Source: Vescimonas coprocola
Lineage (GTDB): Bacteria; Bacillota; Clostridia; Oscillospirales; Oscillospiraceae
Reading direction: 5' to 3'
Length of the DNA: 64,000 nucleotides
Assembly (NCBI RefSeq): GCF_018408575.1
Contig: NZ_AP023418.1
Location: forward strand, 1-64,000
Notes under the pieces: model-generated
What the model saw: only the letters and a program-made list of their open reading frames with translations
Told to the model about the DNA's origin: nothing
Databases searched by the model: none
Shown here: positions 2,864 through 20,584 of the stretch, piece after piece
How the letters are laid out: each line of letters begins with the position of its first letter
Position numbering within the stretch: position 1 is the first letter of the stretch
Made by a program: the position numbers and the translations under genes

Positions 2864-2892
2864 ATTGTATACATCTTTGAACCCGAAGTCAA
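2864..2892 (-). promoter_or_regulatory. Promoter of ald copy 1 with overlapping TGTATACA palindrome
   Basis: On the minus strand TTGACT (2887-2892) and TACAAT (2864-2869) are separated by 17 bases. The -10 lies inside the near-palindrome ATTGTATACAT (2864-2874). The ald copy 2 promoter has the same layout although the surrounding sequence differs, which suggests the operator and core promoter are what selection preserved. Confidence 0.65.
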
Positions 2893-2956
2893 CATTAAAA
2901 ATGTGGATTTTGAACATTTTGTAAACTTGACTGAAATTCATCATTAAATTTAGACG

Positions 2957-2966
2957 TTGTATACAA
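2957..2966. promoter_or_regulatory. TTGTATACAA operator upstream of the racemase gene
   Basis: Perfect 10-base palindrome TTGTATACAA, in the divergent region between ald copy 1 (minus) and the racemase-like gene (plus). TACAAT (2962-2967) within it could be the -10 of the plus-strand gene, but I see no good -35 at the right distance. It fits the style of sites bound by GntR/FCD repressors. Confidence 0.6.
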
Positions 2967-3094
2967 TGGTAAGATTTAATATTGCCTTTTTCCCTGCTTT
3001 GCTGTACTATATGGATAAACCGTGGATCGTCTGCGGTGACATACTCGGATGGCCTGCCGGTGGGAGTCGGTCACAGGCTAACAGGAGGAATATT

Positions 3095-3808
3095 ATGGAA
3101 AAGATCGCAATTCTCCGCTGGGAATCCGGCCATGTGCCTCAGGGCCTCATGCAGCTGGAACAACTGCCCGGCAACAGCACCAATCCGGCATCCTACCCCT
3201 TCCCGGTGAAGCTGGTGGAGGTGAAGGGCGCCAACACCGACACCGTGATCCTGCACCCCAGCCAGAAGCTGCTGGAGGACATGATTCAGCTGGCCAAGGA
3301 GCTGGAGAAGGAGGGCGTTCGGGCTATCACCACCAGCTGCGGCTTCAACGCTATCTTCCAGGAGGCACTGGCCAACGCCGTGAAGATCCCGGTGTTCACC
3401 TCCTCTCTGCTGCAGGTGCCCTTTGCACAGGCTCTGGTGGGTCGTGACCGGGCCGTGGGCGTCATCACCGCCAGCGCCTCCAGTCTGTCCGAAAAGCATC
3501 TGCGGGCCTGCGGCATCACCGATGAGATGCACCCCATCGTCATGGGTCTGGAGAACGCCCCGGAGTGGAGCAAGATCTTCGACCATCCTGATGACAGCTT
3601 CGACATGGACCTTGTCACCGAAGAGATCCTGAATGTGGCCCGTCAGGGCGTCAAGGATCACCCGGAGATCGGTGCCATCGTACTGGAATGCACCGACCTG
3701 CCCCCCTTCGCCCGCCGCATCCGGGAGGAGCTGGACATCCCCGTGTTCGACTTCAACTCCATGATCGGCCATGTGGCTATGGCCCTGAGCCTTGTAAAGC
3801 TGTATTAA
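3095..3808 (+). CDS. Aspartate/glutamate racemase family protein
   Basis: 237-aa cytosolic enzyme of the Asp/Glu/hydantoin racemase superfamily, which uses two cysteines as acid/base pair to invert or eliminate at an alpha-carbon. The two expected cysteines are present, in TTSCGFN (Cys82) and VLECTD (Cys199). The ATG at 3095 is chosen because AGGAGGAA sits 5 bases upstream; the longer upstream frame has no such site. The gene is plus-strand between the two minus-strand nhaC-ald units and has its own TTGTATACAA palindrome and terminator. Context suggests it feeds amino acids into the alanine/glycine fermentation, but its substrate is unknown; arylmalonate-decarboxylase-like activity is an alternative. 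Confidence 0.8.
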   Translation: MEKIAILRWESGHVPQGLMQLEQLPGNSTNPASYPFPVKLVEVKGANTDTVILHPSQKLLEDMIQLAKELEKEGVRAITTSCGFNAIFQEALANAVKIPVFTSSLLQVPFAQALVGRDRAVGVITASASSLSEKHLRACGITDEMHPIVMGLENAPEWSKIFDHPDDSFDMDLVTEEILNVARQGVKDHPEIGAIVLECTDLPPFARRIREELDIPVFDFNSMIGHVAMALSLVKLY

Positions 3809-3817
3809 GTGATAAGC

Positions 3818-3856
3818 AAAAGCGCTCCCTCCACCGATGTGGAGGGAGCGCTTTTT
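3818..3856 (+). terminator. Terminator of the racemase gene
   Basis: Perfect hairpin with 17-base arms (3818-3834 and 3839-3855), a CGAT loop and a T run, beginning 9 bases after the stop codon. Confidence 0.9.
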
Positions 3857-3916
3857 GCGTGTCCCCGGCGTCCCGGCCCAATATGCCGCCGGGCAGCCAA
3901 ACCGGGCGATCCTCCG

Positions 3917-3956
3917 AAAAAACAGAGGCCCCTGTTTCCAGAGGACCCCTGTTTTT
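3917..3956 (-). terminator. Probable terminator of nhaC copy 2
   Basis: Imperfect inverted repeat read on the minus strand: AAAAACAG (rc of 3949-3956) and CTGTTTTTT (rc of 3917-3925) as outer arms, with GC-rich pairing inside and a T run at the end. It is placed 60 bases beyond the nhaC stop at 4016. Confidence 0.55.
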
Positions 3957-4015
3957 GGATATGGAATGGATGGATTTTCTCTTTCAAACAAACGCACAAG
4001 CAGCCAAGGTATGGT

Positions 4016-5422
4016 TTACAGGCAGATACCGATGATAATGTAGCCGATGCAGGTGATGACAGCCACAGTCAGAGCGTAGGGCATCTGAGTCTTAACGTGA
4101 TCCACGTGGTCGGAGCCTGCACCCAGAGAGGACAGGATGGTGGTGTCGGACAGGGGGGAGCAGTGGTCACCGAAGCAGCCGCCGCCCATGACAGCAGCGA
4201 TGGTGGCGTACACCAGATTGGTAGCCTCACCGCCGGCCATATTGAAGGCCAGCGGCATGGCAATGGGGATCATGATGGCGTACACGCCCCAGCTGGTGCC
4301 GGTGAAGAAGGACATGAAGGCGCAGACAGCGAAGGTCAGAGCCAGCAGGGTCACGGGGGTCATCCAGCTCTCGGTGACGCTGATGACGTAGTTGGAGGTA
4401 CCCAGCGTCTTGGAGATGGCGTTGATGCAGTAGGCCAGAGACAGGATCAGCATAGCGCTGACCACGGACTTGATGCCCTCGGTGGCCACCTGGATCATCT
4501 CACGGATGTTGAAGGCCTTCTGGATCAGCAGCACGATGGCCTGATAGACGACGGCCAGCACGAAAGCCTCCAGCGTCTTGGCAGAGCCCATGATGACGTA
4601 GGTGCCGATGGTCACGGCGATAACGATCAGAGCGGGGATCAGGAAGTGCAGAATAATGTTGGACTTGAAGCCCTCCTTGGGCTTGATGTTGTCCAGCTCA
4701 CGGGACAGCATGGGGGTGGATCCGTCGGCCACCACCTTGCCGGTGGTGCGGGCACGCTCCTCGGCCTTCTTCATGGGGCCGTAGTCAGGCAGGAAGCCCA
4801 GAGCCACCAGGAAGATCATGACGATGGTCAGGATGCCGTACAGCTGGAAGGGGATGGAGTGGATGACGGCGTCCTGGCCAGCCTCCGCCGTGGCGAAGGT
4901 GCCGAAGCCCACCACCAGACCGGCTACATACACGCCCCAAGAGGTGAAGGGGAGGGTGATGCAGACGGGAGCGGAGGTGCAGTCGCACAGCCAGGCCAGC
5001 TTCTCACGGGAGACCTTGGCCTTATCGGTGATGGGACGCATCACGTTACCCACGAACAGGGGGGAGAAGTAGTCGGAGAAGAACACCAGAACACCCAGCG
5101 CAGCGCCCATGATCTGAGCAATGCGGGGCGTGATGTGAAGCTTCTCATTGAGCTTGTTGGCCACGGCCTCAATGGCGCCGGACTTCTGGAAGAAGGCCAC
5201 CATGATACCGATGAACACCTCGATACCGATGACCCAGATGAAATCGGCATTGCCCAGAGCACTCTGAATGATGCCGGTGAAGCCGAACAGCAGGTCCTGA
5301 CCGGTGATGAGCAGACCCACCAGAACGCCGCACAGGATGGAGAACAGGGCTTCTCTCGTAATGAACGCCAGGATAACGGCGATCAGAGCAGGAGCCAGAG
5401 AAAGGATACCATAATTATCCAT
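4016..5422 (-). CDS. nhaC: NhaC-family Na+/H+ antiporter, copy 2
   Basis: Complete 468-aa polytopic membrane protein of the NhaC family, about 11-12 hydrophobic segments, with the family-typical acidic/histidine loop GGGCFGDHCSPLSDTT near residue 420. Likely a Na+/H+ antiporter in the cytoplasmic membrane. It lies 268 bases downstream of intact ald on the same strand and is probably co-transcribed from the operator-controlled ald promoter. Pairing with alanine dehydrogenase suggests it balances Na+ or pH during amino-acid fermentation, or handles an amino-acid-related substrate; that part is inference. Family assignment is firm, substrate is not. Confidence 0.88.
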   Translation of the reverse strand: MDNYGILSLAPALIAVILAFITREALFSILCGVLVGLLITGQDLLFGFTGIIQSALGNADFIWVIGIEVFIGIMVAFFQKSGAIEAVANKLNEKLHITPRIAQIMGAALGVLVFFSDYFSPLFVGNVMRPITDKAKVSREKLAWLCDCTSAPVCITLPFTSWGVYVAGLVVGFGTFATAEAGQDAVIHSIPFQLYGILTIVMIFLVALGFLPDYGPMKKAEERARTTGKVVADGSTPMLSRELDNIKPKEGFKSNIILHFLIPALIVIAVTIGTYVIMGSAKTLEAFVLAVVYQAIVLLIQKAFNIREMIQVATEGIKSVVSAMLILSLAYCINAISKTLGTSNYVISVTESWMTPVTLLALTFAVCAFMSFFTGTSWGVYAIMIPIAMPLAFNMAGGEATNLVYATIAAVMGGGCFGDHCSPLSDTTILSSLGAGSDHVDHVKTQMPYALTVAVITCIGYIIIGICL

Positions 5423-5596
5423 ATTTACCTCCTCAAGTTTTCAGGTTGTTTCTCTTTTTCGTGTTGTTGCTTGTGTTGCTTGCGTAGTACCACCGATGAA
5501 CAAGGGCAGACACGCCTGACAGCGATGGTATAGAAATATAACAGGTCTCCATTCGCCTCGGCCGGGGGGGGGACTTCCACTCTGCGGGGGTTCCCT

Positions 5597-5626
5597 GCTC
5601 CGGCGTCAGGAATCTGACACCGGAGC
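5597..5626 (-). other. Hairpin in the ald-nhaC intergenic spacer, unit 2
   Basis: 13-base arms (5597-5609, 5614-5626) with a 4-base loop and one G-T wobble on the RNA strand. No T run follows on the minus strand. A G-only run (5564-5572) lies further downstream in the same leader. Possible processing or attenuation structure; not demonstrated. Confidence 0.5.
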
Positions 5627-5690
5627 ACCCCGTGTGATGAGGAGTAATGGAAACTGGTTATCAAATAGAGGGTAGTCTAAGAGGAAAAGC

Positions 5691-6809
5691 TTACCAGACC
5701 TTGACCAGCTCGTCGGCGTCGGTCCACTCACGGTTCTGCTTCAGAGCCGTCTCCTTCAGCGTCAGCTTGCCGTCGTAGCAGGTCATGCCAAGACGCAGCA
5801 GGCGGTTATCCTCCATGGCCTTCTTAAAGCCCTTATCCGCCATCTGCAGCAGGTAGGGCAGGGTGGCGTTGGCCAGCGTCACGGAAGCGGTCTGGGAGAA
5901 AGCGGAGGGGATGTTGTCCACGCAGTAGTGCATCACGCCGTCCACATAGTAGATAGGATCGTCATGGGTGGTATCCCGGCAGGTCTCGATGGCGCCGTTC
6001 TCGTCGCAGGCCACGTCCACGATCATGGCACCGGGCTTCATCAGCTTCAGGTCCTCACGATAGACAATGTGGTCCTTGCGGTCCTTGGCCCACAGGATGC
6101 CGTTGATGATGACGTCGGACTCCCGCAGGCACTTCTCCAGATTGCTGCGGTTGGAGATCATGTAGGTGATGTTGGCGGGGGAGGTCTTCTTGGCGGCCAG
6201 CATGGTGTTCATGTTGACATCCAGAATACGCACCTCGTTGCCGAAGGCGGCAGCCAGCTCAGCAGCGCCGGTACCTACCACGCCGCAGCCCAGCATGGTG
6301 ATGATGGGGGTCTCCACGCCGGTGACGTTGGCCAGCAGCTTGCCGGGGCCGCCGTTGACGGACTGGGCAAAGTGCAGGGCTGCCAGGAAGCCGCCCTTAC
6401 CGGCCAGCTCGCTCATGGGGCGCAGCAGGGGGAACTTGCCCTCCTCGTCCTGCACATCCTCATAGGCCACGGCGGAGACGTGGCTGCCCAGCAGGGTGTC
6501 CGTCTCGTCGGGGTGAGCGTTGGAGTGGATATAGGTGAAGAGGATCTTGTCCTTGTTCATCCACTTGAACTCCTGGGGGAACAGCTCCTTGACCTTGTAG
6601 TACAGGTCGGCCTTCTCCCAGACGGTGTTGGTGTCGGCGACGATAGCGCCGGCAGCCTCATACTGCGCATCGCTGAAACCGCTGCCTACGCCGGCGCCGG
6701 TTTCCACGTACACGGTGTGACCGTGACGCACGATCTCATGCACGGTGGCAGGCACTGCCGCCACACGGTATTCATTGCCCTTGATTTCCTTCAGTACTCC
6801 GATGACCAT
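5691..6809 (-). CDS. ald: Alanine dehydrogenase (intact copy)
   Basis: 372-aa NAD-dependent L-alanine dehydrogenase, converting alanine to pyruvate, ammonia and NADH in the cytosol. The N-terminus MVIGVLKEIKGNEYRV, the HSNAHPDE substrate-site region near residue 95 and the Rossmann motif GCGVVGTG near residue 175 are typical, and the length matches the family. In Stickland metabolism alanine is the classic electron donor paired with glycine as acceptor, and the glycine reductase genes lie 9-17 kb away. The start at 6809 is preceded by GAGG at suitable spacing. Expression is predicted to be governed by the palindrome overlapping its -10 box. Confidence 0.95.
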   Translation of the reverse strand: MVIGVLKEIKGNEYRVAAVPATVHEIVRHGHTVYVETGAGVGSGFSDAQYEAAGAIVADTNTVWEKADLYYKVKELFPQEFKWMNKDKILFTYIHSNAHPDETDTLLGSHVSAVAYEDVQDEEGKFPLLRPMSELAGKGGFLAALHFAQSVNGGPGKLLANVTGVETPIITMLGCGVVGTGAAELAAAFGNEVRILDVNMNTMLAAKKTSPANITYMISNRSNLEKCLRESDVIINGILWAKDRKDHIVYREDLKLMKPGAMIVDVACDENGAIETCRDTTHDDPIYYVDGVMHYCVDNIPSAFSQTASVTLANATLPYLLQMADKGFKKAMEDNRLLRLGMTCYDGKLTLKETALKQNREWTDADELVKVW

Positions 6810-6895
6810 TTTTTGTTACCTCACTTTCGGGAAGCAAAGCTCTCGTCAGATTCACAATAGATGATTCAAAGATTGACACATCTTTTGTTGGGATT

Positions 6896-6924
6896 ATTGT
6901 ATACAATAGCGGGCGTAAGGTCAA
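6896..6924 (-). promoter_or_regulatory. Promoter and operator of ald copy 2
   Basis: Minus strand: TTGACC (6919-6924), 17-base spacer, TACAAT (6896-6901). The -10 is embedded in the perfect 12-base palindrome ATTGTATACAAT (6896-6907), so a bound protein would block RNA polymerase. About 300 bases (6810-7109) separate ald from the next gene; besides this promoter they contain only the hairpin at 7037. Confidence 0.7.
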
Positions 6925-7036
6925 GTTAAGGTATCGTTCACAACTGTGACACAAGAATAAATAAACCGTTAAGCGGTCGTGAGAATGCGACGGAAACCGC
7001 CCGACGGTACAGGACTTCGTCCGTCGGACAAAACAA

Positions 7037-7071
7037 ATTGCCCTGCACCACATTTTACGGTGCAGGGCAAT
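7037..7071 (-). terminator. Terminator of the first gntR gene
   Basis: 13-base perfect arms (7037-7049, 7059-7071) around a 9-base loop. On the minus strand it is followed by the T-rich TTTGTTTTG, about 40 bases past the gntR stop. Confidence 0.7.
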
Positions 7072-7109
7072 ATCTTTATGCTTGCTTTACGGCAAAGGGT
7101 GTGCTATCA

Positions 7110-7748
7110 TCACAGCTGTTGGGATTCCCGGACACATTCCTCCGCCAGCTGCAGGTCCTCCATCAGGGCCAGCACGCCCTTCTGCTCGTCCCGGTCCCGG
7201 AACGCCTCGAAGATGCGACGGTGGAGATCCAGCGACAGGCTGTTGGTGGTGGAGGTGTCCCAGAACAGCAGGTAGGTAGCGACCTTGTTCTGCAATTCGT
7301 TCAGGTACTTCTCGTAGTAGGCGTTCTGGGCTTCCATGGTGATGATCCAATGAAACTCCCGGTTCAGCTGGACATACTCCGTCATGTTAAAGAGGTTCTT
7401 CAAATCCTGCTGCTTTTGCAGGTTCTGCTCCATCTGGAGGACGCTCTCTTCACTGCGGCGATGGACGGCGGCCCGGAAGGCCCCCACCTCCAGCACAGCC
7501 CGTGCCTCATACACCTGCCGCAGATCCGTGGCGGAGGGCTTTGCCACCACGGCGCCCCGGTTGGGCTGCTGCTGGATGAGACCGTCATAGGCCAGCCGCA
7601 TCAACGCCGAGCGCACCGGAGTCCGGCTGACACCGGTTTCCCGTACCAGTTCCTCCTCCACGATGCGGGTGCCGGGATAGATGGCCTTGGTGACGATCTG
7701 ATTTTTGATGTAATCGTAGACGATATCCGCCGGATTCCCCTGTTTCAT
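7110..7748 (-). CDS. GntR-family regulator with FCD domain (1)
   Basis: 212-aa transcription factor: winged HTH (about residues 8-75, recognition segment SRTPVRSAL) followed by an all-helical FCD ligand-binding domain (about 85-210). FCD regulators usually sense carboxylic or amino acids and bind short palindromes centred on GT-n-AC. It is clearly paralogous to the regulator at 8812-9459, which shares the DIVY-Y-KNQI start, PNRGA-VAKPS wing and DLRQVY linker. It sits head-to-head with the DMT permease at 7835. It is a good candidate to bind the TTGTATACAA sites nearby; the ligand is unknown. Confidence 0.88.
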   Translation of the reverse strand: MKQGNPADIVYDYIKNQIVTKAIYPGTRIVEEELVRETGVSRTPVRSALMRLAYDGLIQQQPNRGAVVAKPSATDLRQVYEARAVLEVGAFRAAVHRRSEESVLQMEQNLQKQQDLKNLFNMTEYVQLNREFHWIITMEAQNAYYEKYLNELQNKVATYLLFWDTSTTNSLSLDLHRRIFEAFRDRDEQKGVLALMEDLQLAEECVRESQQL

Positions 7749-7834
7749 TCTCTGATCTCTCCCATTCCCTATTTTTGGCCCGTGGCCTATACCAAAAAAC
7801 TGTCATTCAATCAAAAAGAAAGAAGTGGACCGCT

Positions 7835-8780: not shown

Positions 8781-8813
8781 GCCGGGACGCCGCAGGTGTC
8801 CCGGCGCTTTTTT
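8781..8813 (+). terminator. Terminator of the DMT permease gene
   Basis: 8-base GC arms (8781-8788, 8798-8805) followed by six Ts (8808-8813). The T run overlaps the last codon of the convergent gntR gene. Confidence 0.8.
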
Positions 8814-9459
8814 ACAGAGGGACATTGATTTTCCGCATATCCTCCCAGGCGATCTGGATATCCTCCCGGAGGCCCAAAAGACCCTTCTCCAGATCCCGGT
8901 CCCGCAGGGCCTCATAGATCATGGTGTGGCTGACAATGGAGTTGTTGTCGCTGGACTGATCGTAGAAGATCATGTAGGTGTTGATCTTGTTGTACAGCTC
9001 GTTGAGATACTTCTCATAGTACTTGTTGGCGGAGGCCTCCACCACCAACCAGTGGAATGTGTGGTTCAAGGTCACATATTCCTGCCGGGAATAGTGTTGG
9101 GTCAGCACCTCCTGGGCCTTGAGATTCTCCTCCATGGCCCGCAGCTGGGCCTCGGTGCGGTGGCGGATGGCGTCCTCCAGCATCCCGTGCTCCAGCACCT
9201 CACGGACCCGATATACCTGCCGCAGATCCTCCTCGCTGGGCTTGGCCACAAAGGCCCCCCGGTTGGGGATCATCTCCACCAGTCCCTCGTATTTCAGCCG
9301 CAGCAGCGCCGGACGGATGGAGGTGCGGCTGGTGCCGGTCTCCCGGATGATGTCGTCCTCGATGATGCGGTTGCCGGGGAACATGGATTTGCCTATGATC
9401 TGATTCTTCACGTACTGGTATACGATATCCTGCGGCTTTGCCTTCTTCATAACTTCCAT
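8812..9459 (-). CDS. GntR-family regulator with FCD domain (2)
   Basis: 215-aa paralogue of the regulator at 7110: N-terminal winged HTH (recognition segment SRTSIRPAL) and C-terminal FCD domain. The two HTHs are similar enough that they may read the same DNA motif, and differ more in the ligand domain. Upstream lie a degenerate palindrome AACTATACAA (9520-9529) and an exact TGTATACA (9611-9618), consistent with autoregulation. It is convergent with the DMT permease. The effector is unknown. Confidence 0.88.
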   Translation of the reverse strand: MEVMKKAKPQDIVYQYVKNQIIGKSMFPGNRIIEDDIIRETGTSRTSIRPALLRLKYEGLVEMIPNRGAFVAKPSEEDLRQVYRVREVLEHGMLEDAIRHRTEAQLRAMEENLKAQEVLTQHYSRQEYVTLNHTFHWLVVEASANKYYEKYLNELYNKINTYMIFYDQSSDNNSIVSHTMIYEALRDRDLEKGLLGLREDIQIAWEDMRKINVPL

Positions 9460-9610: not shown

Positions 9611-9618
9611 TGTATACA
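9611..9618. promoter_or_regulatory. TGTATACA site upstream of gntR (2)
   Basis: Exact 8-base palindrome in the gap between gntR (2) and the convergent end of the next gene. It is about 150 bases from the gntR start, so if functional it acts from a distance or belongs to an upstream promoter I cannot identify. Confidence 0.4.
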
Positions 9619-10607: not shown

Positions 10608-10645
10608 TTGTTTTATCAAAAAGATATGTTAAAATCGTGTATACC
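10608..10645 (+). promoter_or_regulatory. Promoter of the permease-selA-selB operon with degenerate operator
   Basis: TTGTTT (10608-10613), 16-base spacer, TAAAAT (10630-10635), then GTGTATACCA (10637-10646), one mismatch from TGTATACA, at about +3 to +10. The tRNA-Sec promoter has the palindrome in the same place relative to its -10. Confidence 0.5.
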
Positions 10646-10696: not shown

Positions 10697-11653
10697 GTGG
10701 GTAAAATGAGTTGGCGTGAGATCAGCGCCATGCTGGGCTCCTGCTGCAGCTCCATGCTGTTCGGCCTGAGCTTTATGTTCACCAAGCGCATCGTGGGTAC
10801 GGTGCCGGCATTTTCCCTTTTGAGCTGGCGCTTTCTCATGGGCGCTGTGGCCATGTCCCTGTGCGCCCTGCTGGGCGTTGTCCATATCGACTATAAGACC
10901 AAGAAGCCGTGGCCGCTGCTGCGGATGACCCTGTACCTTCCGGCGGCCTACTTCATCTTCGAGACGTATGGCATCGAGTTGACCTCCGCATCCGAGAGCG
11001 GCACCATCATCGCCTGCATCCCCATCTTCACGGTGCTGGCCTCGGCGCTGTTCCTCCACGAGATGCCCAGTAAATTTCAGGTGGGCGGCGTCCTGCTGTC
11101 CACTGTGGGCATCGTCATCATCACTTTGCTGAAGGGGACCAGCCCCACCTTCAACCCCTTGGGCTATGTGCTGCTGTTCGGGGCCGTGTTCAGCGACGTC
11201 ATTTATTTCATCCACAACCGCCAGCTGACGGCCTATACCCCCGTGGAGAAGACCTATTTCATGTGCCTGACGGGGGCGGTGTTCTTCACCGTCTGCGCCT
11301 TGGTGTATAACGGCGTCCACGGAACGGTGACGGAGTATCTGACCCTGCCCTTTACCAGCGGCAGCTTTCTGACCTCCTGCCTGTATCTGGGCATCGGCTG
11401 CACCACGCTGGCCTTTCTGCTGACCAACCGCTCCGTCACCATCATCGGCCCCACCCGCACCTCTGCCTTCTCCGGCCTGACCACCGTGATCTCTGTGGTC
11501 AGCGGCGTGGTGTTCCTCCATGAGCCCTTCTCCCTGCTGCAGGGGCTGGCCACGGCGCTGGTGCTGGCGGGCATCTACTGCGTCAATATCCTCCATTCCA
11601 TCTACACCGCCCGCCGACAGGCGGCTGCCGAACAAAAGGAGCAAACCGTATGA
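10697..11653 (+). CDS. EamA/DMT-family permease, overlapping selA
   Basis: 318-aa membrane protein with about ten helices arranged as two EamA repeats; no close relative of the permease at 7835 beyond the superfamily. GTG at 10697 is preferred (GAGG 9 bases upstream); ATG at 10688 or 10706 are alternatives. Its stop overlaps the selA start by four bases (ATGA at 11650-11653), so permease, selA and selB are translationally coupled. That linkage hints at a role in selenium or cysteine/serine handling, or in the amino-acid pathway that the selenoproteins serve. Substrate is not shown by sequence. Confidence 0.82.
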   Translation: MGKMSWREISAMLGSCCSSMLFGLSFMFTKRIVGTVPAFSLLSWRFLMGAVAMSLCALLGVVHIDYKTKKPWPLLRMTLYLPAAYFIFETYGIELTSASESGTIIACIPIFTVLASALFLHEMPSKFQVGGVLLSTVGIVIITLLKGTSPTFNPLGYVLLFGAVFSDVIYFIHNRQLTAYTPVEKTYFMCLTGAVFFTVCALVYNGVHGTVTEYLTLPFTSGSFLTSCLYLGIGCTTLAFLLTNRSVTIIGPTRTSAFSGLTTVISVVSGVVFLHEPFSLLQGLATALVLAGIYCVNILHSIYTARRQAAAEQKEQTV

Positions 11654-13029
11654 ATGAGCTGCTGCGAGCCATCCCCAAAGTGACCGAGCTATATGATCTG
11701 CCGGAGGTGTCCGACCTGCGGGAGCACTACGCTCCCTCCTCCGTGACGGAGTGGATCCGTACCGTGCTGGAGCAGCTGCGCTCCGCCATCCTCAGCGGTG
11801 AGGTGACGACCCTCCCCACGCTGGAGGAGTTGGGTGACCGGATCTGCCGGGTGGCGGCACGGGAGTCCCTGCCGTCTCTGCGGCCGGTCATCAACGCCAC
11901 CGGCGTCATTCTCCATACCAATCTGGGCCGTGGCTGCCTGTCCGACCGGGCGGCGGACGCCGTATACGACATCGCACGGGGCTATTCCACGCTGGAGTAT
12001 AACGTGGAGGCGGGCCATCGGGGAAGCCGCCACGACCATGTGGAAAAGCTGCTGTGCCGTCTCACCGGCGCCGAGAGTGCCATGGTGGTCAATAACAATG
12101 CCGCCGCCGTCATGCTGATCCTCAGCACCTTGGCCCAGGGGGGCGAGGTCATCACCTCCCGCGGGGAGCTGGTGGAGATCGGCGGTTCCTTCCGGGTGCC
12201 GGATATCATGGAGCTGTGCGGCTGCCATCTCCGGGAGGTAGGCACCACCAATAAGACGCACCTCTCTGACTATGAACGGGCCATCGGGGAGCAGACCCGT
12301 GCGCTGCTGAAGGTGCATACCAGCAACTACCGCATTGTGGGCTTTACCGAGTCCCTGCCTCTGAGCGACATCGTGGCCCTGGGCTGCCGCACCGGTCTGC
12401 CGGTGGTGGAGGATCTGGGCAGCGGCTCACTGGTGGATCTGGAGCACTACGGCATCCACGACGAGCCCACGGTGCAAAACAGCATCCGGGCCGGGGTGGA
12501 TGTGGTGAGCTTCAGCGGTGATAAGCTGCTGGGCGGGCCGCAGGCCGGTATTATTTTGGGAAAGAAGCCGTACATCGACCGGATGAAGCGCCACCCGCTG
12601 GCCCGTGCCATCCGGGTAGATAAAATGACCATCGCCGCCCTGTGGGCCACCCTCACCACCTATCAGGACCTGCACCGGGCGGAGCAGGAGATCCCCACGC
12701 TGGCCATGCTGGCCGTCTCCGGGGAGGATCTGCGGGCCTCTGCGGCCCAGCTGTGCGCCCTGCTGAAGGAGCGGGGCGTGGCGGCGGAGGTAGTGGCCCA
12801 GTCCGGGCCGGTGGGCGGCGGCTCCGTCCCCACCCAGCTGCTGCCCACCTTTGCCGTGGCCCTTCCGGCGGACAAGCTGTCCCCCAATCAGGCGGAGCAG
12901 GCTCTGCGCTGCCGGGAAAAGCCCATCATCGGCCGCATCACCGAGGGTCGGCTGCTGCTGGACGTGCGGACCATCTTCCCGGAGGACATGGAGTATATCG
13001 CTGACACGGCGGCGGAGGTGCTGGCATGA
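11650..13029 (+). CDS. selA: L-seryl-tRNA(Sec) selenium transferase
   Basis: 459-aa PLP enzyme that converts Ser-tRNA(Sec) to Sec-tRNA(Sec) using selenophosphate. The PLP lysine is Lys292 in SFSGDKLLGG, followed by the PQAGII segment; RPVINATGVILHTNLGR near residue 80 is also diagnostic. Length is normal for bacterial SelA. It overlaps the upstream permease and the downstream selB by four bases each, giving a tight three-gene operon. Its products serve grdA and grdB a few kilobases downstream. selD is not in the window. Confidence 0.97.
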   Translation: MNELLRAIPKVTELYDLPEVSDLREHYAPSSVTEWIRTVLEQLRSAILSGEVTTLPTLEELGDRICRVAARESLPSLRPVINATGVILHTNLGRGCLSDRAADAVYDIARGYSTLEYNVEAGHRGSRHDHVEKLLCRLTGAESAMVVNNNAAAVMLILSTLAQGGEVITSRGELVEIGGSFRVPDIMELCGCHLREVGTTNKTHLSDYERAIGEQTRALLKVHTSNYRIVGFTESLPLSDIVALGCRTGLPVVEDLGSGSLVDLEHYGIHDEPTVQNSIRAGVDVVSFSGDKLLGGPQAGIILGKKPYIDRMKRHPLARAIRVDKMTIAALWATLTTYQDLHRAEQEIPTLAMLAVSGEDLRASAAQLCALLKERGVAAEVVAQSGPVGGGSVPTQLLPTFAVALPADKLSPNQAEQALRCREKPIIGRITEGRLLLDVRTIFPEDMEYIADTAAEVLA

Positions 13030-14936
13030 AGCACGTCATCATCGGCACCGCCGGTCATGTGGATCACGGCAAGACCATGCTCATCAAGGCCCTGACCGGT
13101 ATCGACACCGACCGCCTCATCGAGGAGAAAAAACGGGGCATTACCATCGAGCTGGGCTTTGCCCATATCGAGTTTGACGACCATACGCAGGCCGGTATCA
13201 TCGACGTGCCGGGCCACGAGAAATTCATCAAGAATATGCTGGCCGGTGCCGGCGGCATCGACCTTGCCATGCTGGTGGTGGCGGCGGACGAGGGCTTCAT
13301 GCCCCAGACCGTGGAGCATCTGGATATTCTGACCCTGTTGGGCATCCGAGACGGTGTGGTGGTCATCACCAAGACCGATATGGTGGATGAGGAGTGGGTG
13401 GAAATTGTCCGGGAGGACATCGCCGCCCACGTCAAGGGGACATTTTTAGAGGGCAAACCTGTCCTGCCGGTGTCCGCTTATACCGGTCAGGGCATCCCGG
13501 AGCTGAAAAAGGAGCTTCAGCAGCGGGTGAGCCGGGTGGCCGTCCGCAACGAGCAGATCCCCTTCCGCCTGCCGGTGGACCGGGTGTTCTCCAAGGACGG
13601 CTTCGGCACCGTGGTCACCGGCACCATGATCGAGGGAAACCTCTCCGTAGGTGACCCGGTGGAGCTGATGCCCTCCGGCCAGCGGGCCAAGGTCCGCACT
13701 CTGCAGGTCCACAACCACTCGGTGGAGCAGGCCTACGCCGGGCAGCGGGTGGCGGTAAATCTGGCGGGCCTGCGGCGGGATGCCGTGGTGCGGGGCGATA
13801 CCCTCTGCAAGCCCGATACCCTGCGCCTGTCCCGGATGCTGGACGTGCGCCTGACCGATCTGAAGGATTCCCACCGCATCATCGAGAACGGCTCCCCGGT
13901 ACACTTCTACCACGGGGCTGCCGCCCATATCGCAAAGGTGGTGCTGCTGGAGCAGGATACGCTGGAGCCGGGCCAGTCCGGCTTTGCCCAACTGCGCTTT
14001 ACGGAGCCGGTGGCGGTGAAGCGGGGAGACCGCTTCGTCACCCGGTTCTACTCCCCCATGGAGACCATCGGCGGCGGCGTCATTCTGGATGACTGCCCGC
14101 CCCGCCATAAGCGGCATCAGCCGGAGGTGATCCGGGCCCTGACCATCCGGGAGGGCGGTTCCGCCGGCGCCCAGCTGCAGCAGCTGGTGGAGGAGTATGG
14201 CTACGCCCTGCCCACGGCCCAAACGCTGGCCCAGCGTCAGAGTATGCCGGAGGAGGAGATGGTGCAGTCACTGGAGGATCTGGTGAACAGCGGCGCTCTG
14301 CTGGAGATCCTGCCCCGACGCTATCTGGCAGCCCCTTTATACCGGAAGGCCTGCCGGTCGGTGGAGCAGGTGCTGGCGGAGTATCACAAGGCCAACCCCC
14401 TCCATGCAGGCATGAAGGTAGCGGCCCTGCGGCAGAAGGCCCTCCGGGGAGCAGAGCTGAAGGAGGCCGACGCCATCCTTACCGCCATGCTCCGGGGCGG
14501 CACCGTCACTGCCATTGCCGACCGCTGCGCCCTGCCGGACTTCCGGGTGGTGCTCACCAAGCGCCAAACGGCCCTGCGCCAAAAGCTGCTGGACAGCTAC
14601 CGTAAGTCCGGTCGGGAGGTCCCCTTTGTGGACGATCTCTACGCCTCTTTCCCAAACAACGAGCGGGACGACTGCAAAAAGGTGCTGGAGAACCTGGTGT
14701 CCTGCGGCGAGCTGGTGATGCTGACGCCCCAGCTGTTTTACCACAAGGATGTCTATGAGGAGGTCTGCGCCCTGACCCGTGATTTCTTTGAGGGCCACCC
14801 CGCCTTTACGCTGGCGGAGTACCGGGACCTGCTGGGGACCTCCCGGAAATATGCGCTGGCCATTCTGGAATTTTTCGACAAGACCAAGGTGACCAAAATG
14901 GTGGGCGACCACCGGGAGGTCATCGGCTCCCTGTGA
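13026..14936 (+). CDS. selB: Selenocysteine-specific elongation factor
   Basis: 636-aa translation factor that delivers Sec-tRNA(Sec) to in-frame UGA codons next to an mRNA SECIS hairpin. Domains: GTPase at residues 1-170 (P-loop GHVDHGKT, switch [14 protein letters not shown]), two beta-barrels to about 340, then the winged-helix repeats that bind SECIS RNA in the C-terminal half. Length is normal. It ends 123 bases before tRNA-Sec. That gap holds the tRNA promoter but I see no convincing selB terminator. Confidence 0.97.
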
Positions 14937-15009: not shown

Positions 15010-15050
15010 TTGATTTTACCCTGTGACCTGTGCTAAACTCCTGTATACAA
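15010..15050 (+). promoter_or_regulatory. Promoter of tRNA-Sec with TGTATACA palindrome
   Basis: TTGATT (15010-15015), 18-base spacer, TAAACT (15034-15039), then CTGTATACAA (15041-15050) at the expected transcription start, ten bases before the tRNA. A repressor here would switch the selenocysteine tRNA together with the glycine reductase genes. Confidence 0.55.
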
Positions 15051-15059: not shown

Positions 15060-15156
15060 GGGAGTAGATGGGTTCTGGTGTGCCCCCTGGTCTTCAAAAC
15101 CAGTGTAGGTGGTGAACAGCCGCCCTGGTGGGTTCGATTCCCACATACTTCCGCCA
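15060..15156 (+). tRNA. selC: tRNA-Sec (anticodon UCA), CCA encoded
   Basis: 97-base tRNA with UCA anticodon in loop CTTCAAA, 5-bp anticodon stem, 8-base acceptor strands (7 pairs including one G-U; the eighth position is G opposite A), a long extra arm, and the T-loop TTCGATT between GTGGG/CCCAC. The anticodon falls at the same distance from the 5' end as in E. coli selC. Discriminator G and CCA are genomic. It lies between selB and grdX. Confidence 0.93.
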
Positions 15157-15161
15157 GAAAC

Positions 15162-15607: not shown

Positions 15608-15629
15608 GAGGGGCATATGAAAAACGCAG

Positions 15630-15663: not shown

Positions 15664-15914
15664 TATTTCTGCCGTGGATGGCATCCCGGCATATGCCGTC
15701 GGAACCGCAAGAGGTAATATCTAAAAAAACGATAATGAAAGAAACGGAGAAACCGGCGACAAGGAAGGTGATCCTGTGCGGTGGCAGCGGCGAAGGGAGG
15801 CGGTGAGCAGGGCGACCCGGCGGGGGTGGCAGGCGGATCCATGCGGAAAAACACACGATACAGTGAGAATAGGGCGATTTTTTGAACGAAAAGAGGACAA
15901 AATTCGCCGCTAAA

Positions 15915-15994
15915 TTGTATACAAAATTTTATTAAAAAATTTTTACATAATTTTGCTAAAAATGATTGATTTTTTGGTTTTGATGGGGTATATT
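15915..15994 (+). promoter_or_regulatory. Promoter region of the grdE operon with TTGTATACAA operator
   Basis: Perfect palindrome TTGTATACAA at 15915-15924. A conventional promoter follows: TTGATT (15966-15971), 17-base spacer, TATATT (15989-15994). Alternatively TATACA inside the palindrome is itself a -10, with a poor -35 AGGACA at 15894. In the first case the site sits near -80 and would suit an activator; in the second, a repressor. Confidence 0.6.
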
Positions 15995-16050
15995 ATAGGC
16001 AGATGCGATTGTGAAAAAGCAACGATCATAGATAGGAGGACACATCGATC

Positions 16051-17337
16051 ATGGATCTGGAACTGAGAAATGTTCAAGTAAAAGATGTCGTCCTGGGTGA
16101 CAAGAACGACCTGAAGGACGGCGTGCTGACGGTGGACGTGGAAGGGCTGAAGAAGCTCATTCTGGAGGACCCCCGTGTGACGGCCGTGAAGGTAGATCTT
16201 GCCAAGCCGGGCGAATCCTGCCGTATCCTTCCGGTGAAGGATGTGGTGGAGCCCCGTTACAAGCCGGAGGGAGAGATCTTCCCCGGTGTGTTCGGCTCCG
16301 ACGTGCCGGAGGCAGGCTCCGGCGTGACCTATGTACTCAAGGGCTGCGCCGTGGTGACCACGGGCCCCATCGTGGGCTTTCAGGAGGGCCTCATCGACAT
16401 GAGCGGCCCCGCCGCCCAGTACACGCTCTTCTCCAAGCTGAACAACGTGGTGCTGCACCTGACCAAGCGGGAGGATGTGGATCAGCACGAGCATGAGGAG
16501 GTCGTCCGCATGGCCGGGCTGAAGGCGGCCCGCTGGCTGGGTGAGGTGGCTGTGAAGGCGGAGAGCTATGATTCCGAGTTCTACCACTGGCCCACCGCCG
16601 CTGAGCGTGCCAACCAGTATCCTGACCTGCCCAAGGTGGTGTATGTGTGCAACTGCATGGCACAGGGCCTGCTGCACGATACTTACTTCTACGGCCGGGA
16701 CACCAAGCAGCTGGTACCCACCGTTGTCTCTCCCACGGAGTTCTTTGACGGTGCGATCATCAGCGGCAACTGCGTGTCCCCCGGCTCCAAGACCACGACC
16801 TATCACCACCTGAACAACGCCGTCATTAAGGCCCTGTGGGCCAAGCACGGCAAGGAGCTGAACTTCGTGGGTATCATTCTGAACCCCCTGATGGTCACCC
16901 TGAAGGAGAAGCAGCGGGACATCATGATGAGCGTCCGCATCGCCACCGAGGAGTTCGGCGCCGACGCCGCCATCATCTCTCAGGAGGGCTTCGGCAACCC
17001 CACCACCGACCTGATGCACGTTTGCCGGGGTCTGGAGAAGCGGGGCGTCAAGACCGTTATCATCACCAACGAGGACGCCGGTACCGACGGCATGTCCGAG
17101 TCTCTGCCGGATGTGGTCACCGAGGCCAACGCCATCGTGTCCACCGGCAACTCCAATGCCACCATCCTGCTGCCCAAGATGGACCGTGTTCTGGGCGAGC
17201 TGAAGGAGGTGGAGCGTGTCACCGGCGGCAATGTGGATTCCATCAAGCCCGACGGCACGCTGCTGCTGGAGATCCACGGTATCATGGGCGGACATAACCT
17301 GCAGGGTAACACCTATCTGTCCGCCACCACTGTTTGA
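16051..17337 (+). CDS. grdE: Glycine reductase protein B, GrdE proprotein
   Basis: 428-aa substrate-binding component of glycine reductase. The proprotein is known to cleave itself between Asn and Cys, leaving a pyruvoyl group that forms a Schiff base with glycine; the site here is SGN|CVSPGSK with Cys241. Length and the HEHEE and HGIMGGHN segments fit the family. AGGAGG lies 11 bases upstream of ATG. It is the first gene of grdE-grdB-trxB-trxA-grdA, followed by grdB with an 17-base gap. It works with GrdB to hand the carboxymethyl group to the selenocysteine of GrdA. Confidence 0.96.
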   Translation: MDLELRNVQVKDVVLGDKNDLKDGVLTVDVEGLKKLILEDPRVTAVKVDLAKPGESCRILPVKDVVEPRYKPEGEIFPGVFGSDVPEAGSGVTYVLKGCAVVTTGPIVGFQEGLIDMSGPAAQYTLFSKLNNVVLHLTKREDVDQHEHEEVVRMAGLKAARWLGEVAVKAESYDSEFYHWPTAAERANQYPDLPKVVYVCNCMAQGLLHDTYFYGRDTKQLVPTVVSPTEFFDGAIISGNCVSPGSKTTTYHHLNNAVIKALWAKHGKELNFVGIILNPLMVTLKEKQRDIMMSVRIATEEFGADAAIISQEGFGNPTTDLMHVCRGLEKRGVKTVIITNEDAGTDGMSESLPDVVTEANAIVSTGNSNATILLPKMDRVLGELKEVERVTGGNVDSIKPDGTLLLEIHGIMGGHNLQGNTYLSATTV

Positions 17338-17354
17338 CGAAGGAGAGGGAAAGA

Positions 17355-18671
17355 ATGAAGAAGATTTTGTTCTATACCAACCAGTTCTTCGGTCAGATCG
17401 GCGGCGAGGATATGGCGTATGCAGAGCCTCAGCTCTTTGAGGGGATGCATGGTTCCGCCAATACCTTCGGTGCCCCTCTGAAGGATATTGCCGAGATCGT
17501 GGCCACGATCGTCTGCGGCGATAACTTCTATGCCGAGAACATGGAGACCGGCCGGGCCTTCCTGCTGGAGCAGATCAAGAAGTATCAGCCCGACCTCATC
17601 ATTGCCGGTCCTGCCTTTAACGCCGGCCGCTTCGGCATCGCCTGCGGCGACGTGTGCAAGACCGCCAAGGAGCAGGCGGGGGTGGAGGCCATTACCGGCC
17701 TGTACGAGGAAAACCCCGCCGTGGATATGTTCAAGAAGGACGTGTACATCCTGCGGGTGGCTAAGTCCGCCGCCGGTATCCGCAAGGCCGTACCCCTGAT
17801 GGCCGGCTTTGCCAGAAAGCTGCTGACGGGTGAGCCCATCGGCACGCCGGAGGACGAGCAGTACTATGCCAAGGGCAAGCGTGTGAACATCTTCCGGGAG
17901 AAGAACGGTGCCGAGCGTGCCGTGGATATGCTGCTGGCCAAGGTCAAGGGCGAGCCCTACAAGACCGAGCTGGAGATCTCCACCTATGAGAAGGTGGAGC
18001 CCTCTGCCCCCATTGCCGACCTCAGCAAGGCCAAGATCGCCCTCTGCACCACCGGCGGCATGGTCCCCATGGGCAACCCCGACCACATGGTGGCGGCTAC
18101 CGCCAAGTTCTGGAAGGAGTACCCCGTGGAGGGCGACACGCTGGAGAGCGGCAAGTGGGAGTCCGTCCACGCCGGCTTCGACCCCGTGTACGCCAACAAC
18201 GACCCCAACCGGGTCGCCCCCTATGATATGCTGAAAATGCTGGAGAAGGAAGGCATCATCGGCAGTGTGTATCCGGCGCTGATCTCTACCACCGGTAACT
18301 CCACTTCCGTTGCTGACTCCACCAGAATGGGCCAGGAGATCGCTGAGCGGCTTGTGTCCGCCGGGGTCAATGGCGTCATTCTGACCAGTACCTGAGGTAC
18401 CTGTACACGTTGCGGTGCAACGATCGTGAAGCAGCTGGAGAAGGCTGGTATCCCCGCCACTCATATCTGCACAGTTACCCCCATTTCCAAGACCGTCGGT
18501 GCGGCCCGTATTTTCGGCGCTCAGGCTATCCCCTATCCCACCGGCGATCCCAACCTGCCTCCTGAGAAGGAGATGAACCGCCGTCGTGAGATCGTCATGG
18601 GCGCTTTGAACCTGCTGACCGAGGGCGGTGGATCCGTGTCCGGCGAGAGCAACGCCGTATTTACTGATTGA
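17355..18671 (+). CDS. grdB: Glycine reductase protein B, selenoprotein GrdB (UGA = Sec)
   Basis: 438-aa subunit of protein B. The frame is interrupted by TGA at 18393-18395, codon 347, and then continues in the same frame with GTCTRCGATIV and 85 further conserved residues to a stop at 18669. The codon is therefore selenocysteine, in the redox motif U-G-T-C typical of GrdB. A hairpin right after the UGA can serve as SECIS. The ATG at 17355 has AAGGAGAGG upstream; an in-frame TTG at 17334 is less likely. Gene-finders will truncate it at residue 346 and may call a second small gene at 18426. Confidence 0.96.
18396..18422 (+). promoter_or_regulatory. Candidate SECIS element of grdB
   Basis: Directly downstream of the UGA, CGTTGC (18408-18413) pairs with GCAACG (18417-18422) around a GGT loop placed 19-21 bases after the UGA, the distance and G-rich loop seen in bacterial SECIS hairpins. 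Confidence 0.6.
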
Positions 18672-18685
18672 CAGGAGCCATTACT

Positions 18686-19630
18686 ATGGACAATAAGATT
18701 TATGATGTAGTCATCTTGGGTGGAGGCCCTGCGGGTCTGGCTGCCGGTCTGTATGCAGGCCGCAGCCGCCTGAGCGTGCTGATCCTGGAAAAGGGCATCG
18801 ACGGCGGCCAGATCGCCGTGACCCATGACATCGAAAACTATCCCGGCCAGTCCAAGGTGGACGGCATGACCGGTCAGGAGCTGGTGGCTCCCATGACCGA
18901 GCAGTGCAAAAAGTTCGGCTGCGAGCGTGTCAGCGATACCATCACCGCCTGCGATTTCAGCGGCCCCGTGAAGAAGTTCGTGGGCAGCAAGGGCGAGTAT
19001 CTGGGCAAGACCGTTATCGTCTGCACCGGTGCCATGACCCGCTCCATCGGCTGCAAGAACGAGGCCAAGTATGTGGGCAAGGGCATCAGCTACTGCGCCG
19101 TGTGCGACGCCAACTTCTTCGAGGACTTCGAGATCTACGTGGTGGGCGGCAACGGCATCGCCGCCGAGGAGTCCCTGTATCTGGCAGGCTATGCCAGAAA
19201 GGTCACCATGATCCACAAAGGTCCGGCTCTGACGGTGTCCCCCATGCTGAAGGAGCGTCTGGACGCCGAGCCTAAGATCCACGTTCTGTGCAATGAAGAG
19301 GTGGAGGACGTGGGCGGCGATGAGCTGCTCAGCGAGATCGTCCTGAAGAACACCAAGACCGGCGAGGAGACGGTGCTCCATGCCGATGAGGAGGACGGCT
19401 TCTTCGGCCTGTTCGGCTTCACCGGCAAAAAGACCACCGGGATGTTCGACGGCGTTCTGGACATGGAGGGCGGCTACATCAAGACCGACGAGTGTATGCG
19501 TACCAACATCCCCGGTGTATTTGCCGCCGGCGACGTGCGGGTGACCCCCCTGCGTCAGGTGGTGACAGCCTGCGCCGACGGCGCCATCGCCGCCATGCAG
19601 TGCTACAAGTATATCAGCGCTCAGAAGTGA
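18686..19630 (+). CDS. trxB: Thioredoxin reductase of the glycine reductase system
   Basis: 314-aa FAD/NAD(P)H flavoprotein. N-terminal FAD-binding GGGPAGLAAG at residues 12-21, redox pair CAVC at Cys137/Cys140, a second nucleotide-binding fold starting near VVGGNGIAAEE, and a C-terminal FAD segment with FAAGDVR. It passes electrons to TrxA, which regenerates GrdA. ATG at 18686 has ACAGGAG upstream; it starts 14 bases after grdB. It carries a short acidic insertion near residues 225-250 (EEDGFFGLFGF) seen in glycine-reductase-linked reductases. Confidence 0.95.
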   Translation: MDNKIYDVVILGGGPAGLAAGLYAGRSRLSVLILEKGIDGGQIAVTHDIENYPGQSKVDGMTGQELVAPMTEQCKKFGCERVSDTITACDFSGPVKKFVGSKGEYLGKTVIVCTGAMTRSIGCKNEAKYVGKGISYCAVCDANFFEDFEIYVVGGNGIAAEESLYLAGYARKVTMIHKGPALTVSPMLKERLDAEPKIHVLCNEEVEDVGGDELLSEIVLKNTKTGEETVLHADEEDGFFGLFGFTGKKTTGMFDGVLDMEGGYIKTDECMRTNIPGVFAAGDVRVTPLRQVVTACADGAIAAMQCYKYISAQK

Positions 19631-19652
19631 TTTTTGAAAGGAGTTCATTACT

Positions 19653-19970
19653 ATGCTGGATCTGACCAAGGAAAATTTCGAGGCGGAAGTCCTCAAGGCA
19701 GAGGGCAAGGTTTTCGTGGACTTTTACGGTGACGGCTGCGTACCCTGCGCTGCGCTGATGCCCTATGTACACGAGTATTCCGAGAAGTACGGTGACAAGA
19801 TGAAGTTCTGCTCCCTGAACACCACCAAGGCCCGCCGTCTGGCCATCAGCCAGAAGGTGCTGGGTCTGCCGGTCATGGCCATCTATGAGAACGGCCAGAT
19901 GATCGACTCCGTGGTGAAGGATGACGCCACCGCTGAGAGCATCGAGGCAATGATCCTCAAGCATTGCTGA
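19653..19970 (+). CDS. trxA: Thioredoxin of the glycine reductase system (GCVPC type)
   Basis: 105-aa thioredoxin with the atypical active site GCVPC (Cys29, Cys32) in place of WCGPC, the form described for thioredoxins of glycine-reducing clostridia. It reduces oxidised GrdA/GrdB. AAAGGAG lies 8 bases upstream. It is placed between trxB and grdA in the operon. Confidence 0.95.
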
Positions 19971-20040
19971 AAACTCATTCCTTTGTTTTCCCGCCCCATG
20001 GGCATGGAATAAAAATCTGAAAGGAAGGAGGAAAATAGAA

Positions 20041-20517
20041 ATGAGTATTCTCAAGGGCAGAAAGGCCATCGTCATCGGTGACCGTGACGGTGTCCCCGGT
20101 ATGGCCATTGCGGCCTGTGCCGAGAGCGCCGGCGCCGAAGTCGTGTTCTCCTCTACCGAGTGCTTCGTCTGAACGGCCGCAGGTGCTATGGATCTGGAGA
20201 ATCAGAAGAGAGTCAAGGAGTTCGTGGAGCAGTACGGAGCAGAAAACATTGTGGTTCTGCTGGGTGCTGCCGAGGGCGAGGGTGCCGGTTTGGCAGCCGA
20301 GACCGTGACGAACGGTGACCCCACTTTTGCAGGTCCTTTGGCAGGAGTCTCGTTGGGACTCAGGGTTTATCATGTATGTGAGCCGGAAGTCAAGGCAGAG
20401 TTTGATGAAGCTGTCTATGATGAGCAGGTCGGTATGATGGAGATGGTGCTGGACGTTGACGATATCGTCAGCGAAATGACCAGTATCCGTGAACAGTATT
20501 GTGCCTTCAAAGACTAA
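20041..20517 (+). CDS. grdA: Glycine reductase protein A, selenoprotein GrdA (UGA = Sec)
   Basis: 158-aa small acidic selenoprotein that carries the carboxymethyl group as Se-carboxymethyl-selenocysteine from protein B to protein C. TGA at 20170-20172 is codon 44 in the conserved motif C-F-V-U (Cys41, Sec44), followed in frame by [11 protein letters not shown], exactly the family context. Stop at 20515. AAAGGAAGGAGG lies upstream of ATG. A downstream hairpin is less obvious than in grdB; GCA-GG-TGC just after the UGA is the best apical stem I see. Automated calling starts it at 20188 and misses the active site. Confidence 0.96.
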
Positions 20518-20528
20518 TGGTCTCACCC

Positions 20529-20559
20529 AGAGAGGGATGGCACACCGCCATCCCTCTCT
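20529..20559 (+). terminator. Terminator of the grdE-grdA operon
   Basis: 13-base perfect arms (20529-20541, 20547-20559) with an ACACC loop, then ATTCTATATAT. It separates grdA from grdC, which has its own promoter region. Confidence 0.75.
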
Positions 20560-20574
20560 ATTCTATATATAAAA

Positions 20575-20584
20575 TTGTATACAA
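20575..20584. promoter_or_regulatory. TTGTATACAA operator of the grdC-grdD operon
   Basis: Perfect palindrome 46 bases upstream of the grdC start and directly after the grdA terminator. AT-rich TATATATAAAA precedes it and may provide the -10. No convincing -35 is seen. Confidence 0.6.

Follow-up and report, generated by a model that had tools for sequence, protein, structure and literature searches.

A palindrome shared by alanine dehydrogenase, selenocysteine and glycine reductase genes of Vescimonas coprocola is a likely operator of VanR-group FCD regulators

In Clostridioides difficile, the Stickland genes for glycine or proline reductase are controlled by PrdR, CcpA, Rex and CodY, which belong to protein families, and use sites, other than those considered here. 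We analyzed a stretch of 64,000 nucleotides from Vescimonas coprocola (RefSeq assembly GCF_018408575.1, contig NZ_AP023418.1, positions 1 to 64,000; the window), in which one palindrome, TGTATACA, recurs before genes for alanine dehydrogenase (ald), the selenocysteine machinery (sel) and glycine reductase (grd), close to two genes for GntR regulators with an FCD domain, GntR1 and GntR2. The closest precedent for both site and protein is Atu1419/VanR of Agrobacterium fabrum. The accessible part of its report describes Atu1419 as a VanR-group FCD/GntR repressor crystallised with its operator ATGTATACAT; at its targets the palindrome overlaps the -10 box, further copies lie 190 bp or, in degenerate form, 109 bp away, looping is proposed, and the DNA contacts named are Ser44, Arg45, Thr46, Arg49, Arg31 and, through the main chain, Glu34 (PMC7797058). 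In the accessible portion of a survey of the FadR subfamily, the operator consensus is TKGT/ACMA with GT and AC 2 or 3 nt apart, the table counts one Clostridia regulator, and no glycine-reductase regulon is seen (PMC4494728). Judged by titles, the papers that a search matched to "glycine reductase" with "GntR" included none on this subject, and among the matches listed for the 10-mer TTGTATACAA, an extended form of the palindrome, no title concerned a bacterial operator. We consider it likely that the palindrome is an operator of VanR-group FCD regulators, most likely GntR1 and GntR2, and that it marks a new regulon of a known regulator type.

Seven exact copies of TGTATACA occur in the window, at 2866, 2958, 6898, 9611, 15042, 15916 and 20576. 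These are the positions given in an initial annotation made from the letters alone, and, as it had reported, all seven are intergenic and confined to the first 21 kb. Its estimate of less than one chance match in 64 kb also holds, with a mean of 0.07 and a maximum of 1 in 100 dinucleotide shuffles of the window. With gene limits set by us, all seven fall into intergenic sequence, which makes up 2,722 bases of the first 23.3 kb; shuffling these AT-richer intergenic pieces alone gave a mean of 0.03 copies and at most 2 in 2000 first-order shuffles. Of the 64 eight-base palindromes with six A/T, none apart from TGTATACA exceeds three copies in the first 21 kb.

The genome comprises 2,557,760 bases in two contigs, C1 (2.55 Mb) and C2 (4,032 bp). 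TGTATACA occurs 20 times on C1, with seven of the copies inside 18 kb of the window, and twice on C2, against 6 occurrences of a reversed control pattern; the stricter TTGTATACAA occurs eight times (seven on C1, one on C2) and its control never. Genome-wide distribution had been set beforehand as a test, and the copies proved to be clustered here and not evenly spread. When one mismatch was allowed, 43 copies were found against 28 for the reversed control. Because this excess is small, degenerate copies elsewhere in the genome are mostly background, and we rejected the idea of a large degenerate regulon. Six of the one-mismatch copies, from four stretches that lie close to the contig end, at 1.22 Mb, at 77-78 kb and at 0.72 Mb, were placed against called open reading frames (ORFs), and the one at 77,023 lies between ORFs.

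Clustering of this kind might have arisen by chance, through a promoter fragment that was recently duplicated, and the nhaC-ald part of the cluster is indeed a 2.8-kb repeat at 99.4% identity (window 1-6828). However, the repeat ends at 2798 and 6828, short of both ald palindromes, and the sequence around both is otherwise unrelated. The sites also recur in other species within promoter flanks that have strongly diverged. The flanks already contradict a duplication, and we give that explanation almost no weight.

Promoters were predicted from consensus matches, and all distances of sites are relative to these predictions. Ald copy 1 has a predicted promoter on the - strand (TTGACT-17-TACAAT), with its candidate proximal operator, TGTATACA at 2866..2873, centred at -12. 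A second copy, at 2958..2965 within TTGTATACAA, lies 92 bp away in the ald copy 1/racemase intergenic region, at about -104 for ald and at -25 or -55 for the racemase gene, depending on whether its top-scored or second promoter is taken. At ald copy 2 the palindrome (6898..6905, within TTGTATACAA) covers the -10 of TTGACC-17-TACAAT. The initial annotation had placed the palindrome over the -10 of both ald promoters in otherwise unrelated sequence, and the predicted promoters and repeat limits bear this out. The copy upstream of gntR2 (9611..9618) sits at about -92 of one predicted promoter and at -48 of an equally scored one. At the operon of an EamA permease with selA and selB, a one-mismatch copy had been proposed and is real (GTGTATACCA): the degenerate TGTATACC at 10638..10645 falls on the predicted start of the eamA2-selA-selB transcript. 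An exact copy at 15042..15049 lies between the -10 and tRNA-Sec. The earlier placement just after the -10 at these last two loci agrees with our predictions, although another promoter scores equally at each, and at tRNA-Sec that alternative puts the site on the -10. Upstream of grdE, TGTATACA within TTGTATACAA (15916..15923) is centred at about -81 of a predicted TTGATT-17-TATATT promoter, and another exact copy within TTGTATACAA (20576..20583) lies between grdA and grdC. Directly 5' of the latter palindrome, the grdA/grdC gap holds a GC-rich, terminator-like hairpin (20520-20575, by eye); judged in the same way, the hairpin is seemingly kept in relatives and the palindrome there is not.

These positions bear on whether the palindrome could simply be part of the promoter of highly expressed genes, an extended -10 (TGTATACAAT), and no operator. 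At both ald promoters, and at a permease operon in a genome from outside the genus (G078), the palindrome does contain the -10 hexamer TACAAT, spaced 17 bp from a -35 of the TTGAC type. A -10, however, needs no two-sided symmetry, and TGTATACA is alone among the six-A/T palindromes in its abundance. Moreover, at grdE and at the transporter gene yedE of relatives the predicted start is 69-81 bp downstream of the site, and at selA the site lies after the -10. We therefore regard an extended -10 as quite improbable and an operator as the better account.

Conservation at orthologous promoters was followed within the genus, where 32 genomes, many of them incomplete assemblies, were searched for grdE and GntR homologues; handles beginning with G denote genomes, G000 being this one. 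A grdE of more than 80% identity occurs in G000, G105, G107 and G109, and G113 has only a 31% match. GntR homologues of at least 45% identity occur in the same four genomes and in G118, with G123 at 42%. The palindrome, exact or with one mismatch, precedes grdE in each of the three relatives that have a close grdE. G109 (about -141 from the gene start) and G107 (about -128) have the exact 10-mer, and G105 (about -118) has it with one mismatch, compared with -136 here. In an alignment of the 200 bp upstream of grdE it forms the longest fully conserved block. Relative to predicted promoters, the site centres lie at -81, -80, -81 and -70 in the four species, the last value being that of G105 and of a third-ranked promoter picked because its hexamers match those of the other species.

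Similar conservation is seen at ald. Both ald copies of G000 and the ald genes of G107, G118 and, with two mismatches, G105 have a site whose centre lies at -12 from the predicted start. A distal site at about -104 to -109 accompanies it at copy 1 of G000 (exact) and in G107 and G118 (one mismatch each), at a spacing of 92-97 bp in three species; ald of G109 has a copy at -104 only. In G107 the site lies in a divergent ald/gntR promoter. The double site of the ald/racemase region recurs 93 bp apart in G118, which has no grdE match and whose single TGTATACA in 1.6 Mb lies between these two genes. The initial annotation's expectation of conservation is thus borne out for grdE and ald in other species. 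At the selA operon, G109 has a two-mismatch copy (ATGTACACAA) at the equivalent position after the -10, and G107 has none. The selA operon and gntR2 of G109 are divergent and have this two-mismatch site in common; the gntR2 site of the window has no clear counterpart in relatives by these comparisons. At tRNA-Sec there is a one-mismatch counterpart in G107 and none in G109 or G105, that is, in one of three relatives.

A matrix built from the window's own eight sites was used to score the 300-bp upstream regions of 31 genes from other genomes, with shuffles for comparison. Nineteen of these genes are orthologues, within the genus, of targets in the window, and eight of the 19 scored at p<0.01 (grdE of G109, G105 and G107; ald of G109, G107 and G118; the racemase gene of G118; tRNA-Sec of G107) and three at p 0.01-0.05 (ald of G105; the selA operon and gntR2 of G109). 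The p values are uncorrected and the counts partly non-independent, as ald and racemase of G118, and the selA operon and gntR2 of G109, each share one region. The other 12 rows stand outside that count and comprise grdE homologues of G107 (a second operon), G078 and G317, gntR1 of G107, gntR and the permease operon of G078, yedE five times and prdC of G113. No site was found in the upstream regions of G317 grdE and G078 yedE. The second grd operon of G107 (49%) has TTGTATACCC, with two mismatches, about 290 bp upstream (shuffle p=0.004), and we do not count it as a member.

A family-wide operator of glycine reductase was considered and rejected. Within 300 bp upstream, 17 further grdE-homologue loci of the family (48-72% identity, with several paralogues within one genome) have no copy at up to one mismatch; among them is G078 grdE (72%), from a genome that has a GntR homologue. 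The link of the palindrome to grd is therefore confined, as seen in these genomes, to this genus.

The candidate readers of the site are GntR1 (7110..7748, - strand), a VanR-like GntR and FCD regulator, and its paralogue GntR2 (8812..9459, - strand). The two are 52% identical and both match PF00392 and PF07729 above cut-off. GntR1 and its homologues match solved FCD regulators best by sequence profile, and an AlphaFold model of GntR1 (mean pLDDT 88.8) matches PmiR, McbR and Atu1419/VanR, among others, in a fold search of the PDB. Its C-terminal domain has six helices (73-97, 100-118, 122-139, 143-163, 170-185 and 188-211), compared with six in the VanR group and seven in FadR. In a profile alignment, the contacts Arg31, Glu34, Ser44, Arg45, Thr46 and Arg49 named in the accessible text on Atu1419 correspond to R28, E31, S41, R42, T43 and R46 of GntR1, and GntR2 has identical letters at all six positions. 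The zinc ligands Asn137 and His141 correspond to N129 and H133, invariant in 12 aligned homologues, and His192 apparently corresponds to the invariant H176 (by the PmiR alignment, as it lies outside the Atu1419 alignment). Together with the VanR-group operator ATGTATACAT, as far as its report is accessible, the shared contact residues lend strong support to the earlier assignment of the palindrome to an FCD-type protein.

Another factor could nevertheless read the site, either one of the remaining FCD proteins or a non-GntR protein, with the adjoining gntR genes being coincidental. Of the four FCD genes in the genome, two lie away from the cluster (203 kb and 2.42 Mb) and have no exact site nearby. 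In favor of another reader, the TGTATACA core also lies 5' of four distant FCD regulators of the family. Against it, GntR1/GntR2 homologues occur in all four grdE-bearing genomes of the genus, G107 and G078 have the site in their gntR promoters, and the residues named as contacts in the accessible account of Atu1419 agree. We judge a different reader to be unlikely, though less so than an extended -10, and retain GntR1 and GntR2 as the probable ones; one regulator and two paralogues reading the same site are indistinguishable from these data.

At FCD loci across the family, an exact site lies within 300 bp upstream in 8 of 49 rows, where at least two genes stand in two rows. The eight are this genome's gntR2 (twice), G107, G078 and the four distant FCD genes; we estimated about 0.1 from the genome site density, a figure that ignores the AT-richness of promoters. 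Two of the distant regulators have two TGTATACA each before their own gene (L112, at 9913 and 10062; L029, at 1427 and 1439), so that in those family members FCD regulators more generally probably use the core as an operator. A wider contig search for the regulator gave one locus, on a 3,124-base contig that matches G105:C123 in length and gene order, which we treated as G105. An order-wide alignment search found the regulator in 2 of 394 genomes at E 1e-35, one being this genome and the other having a locus without the site; this is an undercount, as the sample missed the carriers G078, G105, G107, G109 and G118, which were evidently not drawn.

Several observations weigh against GntR1 and GntR2 as readers of a shared operator. 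The core is common to other FCD regulators of the family and so does not by itself single out these two. In each of the 12 aligned homologues, Asp198 apparently takes the place of the third metal-ligand histidine (His214 of Atu1419), judged by the PmiR alignment. Counts of TTGTATACAA do not track regulators: G105 has 3, G107 has 2 and G109 has 1, and seven genomes without a close GntR (G101, G106, G113, G114, G119, G126 and G130) still have one or two. G105 has no exact copy at any of the window's target genes. Finally, 8 of the 19 orthologous promoters lack the site, namely grdC of G109, G105 and G107, tRNA-Sec of G109 and G105, selA and gntR2 of G107, and ald of G123; the grdC site is thus seen in this genome only.

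Sites also occur at genes other than those of the window. Upstream of yedE (TIGR04112, a putative selenium transporter), G105 has an exact 10-mer and G109 a one-mismatch copy, centred at -71 and -69 of predicted promoters. In these two genomes the palindrome precedes yedE together with a small gene, presumably TusA-like; selD and yqeB are neighbours in G109. No copy at up to one mismatch was found at yedE of G118, G107 and G078, G000 and G123 have no yedE match, and yedE of G113 begins at a contig end. G113, whose assembly is 66% complete and which has no close GntR, has TTGTATACAA 283 bp before prdC of proline reductase. G078 has copies at its GntR gene and on the -10 predicted for a peptide/nickel-type ABC permease operon. 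On C1, 13 exact copies lie outside the window: five in coding sequence, judged by codon-position GC, three that are promoter-like and five assigned to neither class. The promoter-like copies lie before an operon for an acyl-CoA-dehydratase-type activase and a double-cubane reductase (1,802,609), 5' of another Tet(35)-like antiporter (1,983,615) and 5' of a short ORF (1,909,957). Relatives of the double-cubane reductase occur in three of six genomes searched; that of G109 (37% identity) has the site in front, and those of G107 and G078 have none in the stretch, so that with one of three we rejected it as a conserved target. A simple ORF caller placed 30 further exact copies in G109, G107 and G105 (29 loci), 22 inside an ORF and 8 between ORFs. 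The latter include copies before genes for a carbamate kinase and a DctA-like symporter (G109) and an amino-acid ABC binding protein (G105).

Taken together, the observation made in the initial annotation is confirmed, and its interpretation, that one regulator coordinates Stickland donor, acceptor and selenium supply, is partly supported by these comparisons and, in our judgement, mostly right. The ald and grdE sites are conserved; the grdC site was found in this genome only, and the gntR2 site has no clear counterpart. For selenium supply, the yedE sites in two relatives add support, and the two-mismatch selA copy and the single tRNA-Sec counterpart are weaker.

We propose that an FCD dimer would read TTGTATACAA through its winged helix-turn-helix. 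Because the ald site lies on the -10 box, binding there should block RNA polymerase, and a loop to the second site 92-97 bp upstream could be closed by two dimers or by a tetramer like that of Atu1419. The site covers the predicted transcription start at selA and, in this genome, at tRNA-Sec, and there it would likewise repress. At grdE and yedE the upstream site, at about -69 to -81, would probably activate, or else repress by looping. When fermentable amino acids are present, the regulator might be released by a small carboxylate that binds its FCD domain; alanine oxidation and glycine reduction would then rise together with the selenocysteine machinery that serves GrdA and GrdB. From the site positions on predicted promoters we infer repression at ald, selA and selC; activation at grdE and yedE is a possibility and not a result. 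That the regulator has two modes set by where its site lies, repressing from the -10 or start of ald, selA and selC and activating from upstream at grdE and yedE, is accordingly a tentative proposal that we think rather doubtful.

Contact with RNA polymerase from upstream would need sites on one shared helical face, and the upstream sites of grdE (four species), yedE (two), gntR2 and the activase/double-cubane operon do share one (R=0.92, p=0.0001), where the null was random positions from -110 to -50 and the eight-site subset was picked after seeing the data. The signal weakens to p=0.01 when four ald distal sites are added and to p=0.14 when two racemase sites (-55) are added too. Sites at -161 (the third antiporter), -169 (prdC), -44 and -141 (gntR1 of G107) and two G123 sites were excluded.

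The genes beside these sites form a cluster. Ald copy 1 (1660..2779, - strand) is split here into two frames (1660-2439 and 2429-2779) and is one open frame in C2. Ald copy 2 (5691..6809, - strand) matches alaDH best, at 357.9 bits, under the curated cut-off of 391.85. The racemase-like gene (3095..3808, + strand) belongs to the PRK07475 family and is named "hypothetical protein". From GntR1 the order is EamA permease, GntR2, an unnamed protein, a second EamA permease, selA, selB, tRNA-Sec and grdE; a Tet(35)/NhaC-like antiporter occurs twice, as does ald. All on the + strand are the second EamA permease, first gene of the selA-selB operon (10697..11653), selA (11650..13029), selB (13026..14936), tRNA-Sec (selC, 15060..15156), grdE (16051..17337), grdB (17334..18644), which has an in-frame TGA and SECIS_4 at 18396-18433, grdA (20050..20517, of which the scanned part, 20188-20517, is GRDA) and two genes at 20630..23328 with the Pfam names DUF5940 and FA_synthesis, which we take to be grdC and grdD. 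Between grdB and grdA lies a gene for a pyridine-nucleotide-disulphide oxidoreductase, presumably thioredoxin reductase. C2 repeats window 1-4029, the nhaC-ald-racemase unit, at 99.9%, which could reflect either a tandem array of the unit that has additional copies or a duplicate made in assembly. At Rfam gathering scores the 64-kb window has only tRNA-Sec and SECIS_4, and a riboswitch or other known RNA was dropped as the shared element.

If the proposal is true, the Stickland electron donor and acceptor, the import of selenium and the insertion of selenocysteine would all be set by one small-molecule signal. A cell benefits from glycine reductase only when it can make and insert selenocysteine, and in Stickland fermentation donor and acceptor must be balanced. 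An operator common to ald, grd and sel genes would be a testable account of how such bacteria switch on this metabolism.

Among the solved chains closest to GntR1 by profile and fold are PmiR of Pseudomonas aeruginosa (7xp0/7xp1), with 29% identity over the fold, and McbR/YncC (4p9f), with 20%; identity to Atu1419 is about 20%. Several features are shared with Atu1419: as far as the accessible text describes it, ATGTATACAT contains the TGTATACA core found here, a site over the -10 is joined by a second at a distance as at ald, and the six contact residues are kept, with a six-helix C-terminal domain predicted here (PMC7797058). In contrast, Atu1419 controls hydroxycinnamate degradation, whereas the sites here precede amino-acid fermentation genes, and its metal ligands are Asn-His-His-His as opposed to an apparent Asn-His-His-Asp here (PMC7797058). 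TTGTATACAA is the 2-nt form of the FadR-subfamily consensus as given in the accessible part of the survey, and the proposal would give a regulon of Clostridiales relatives to a subfamily that has one Clostridia member in its table (PMC4494728).

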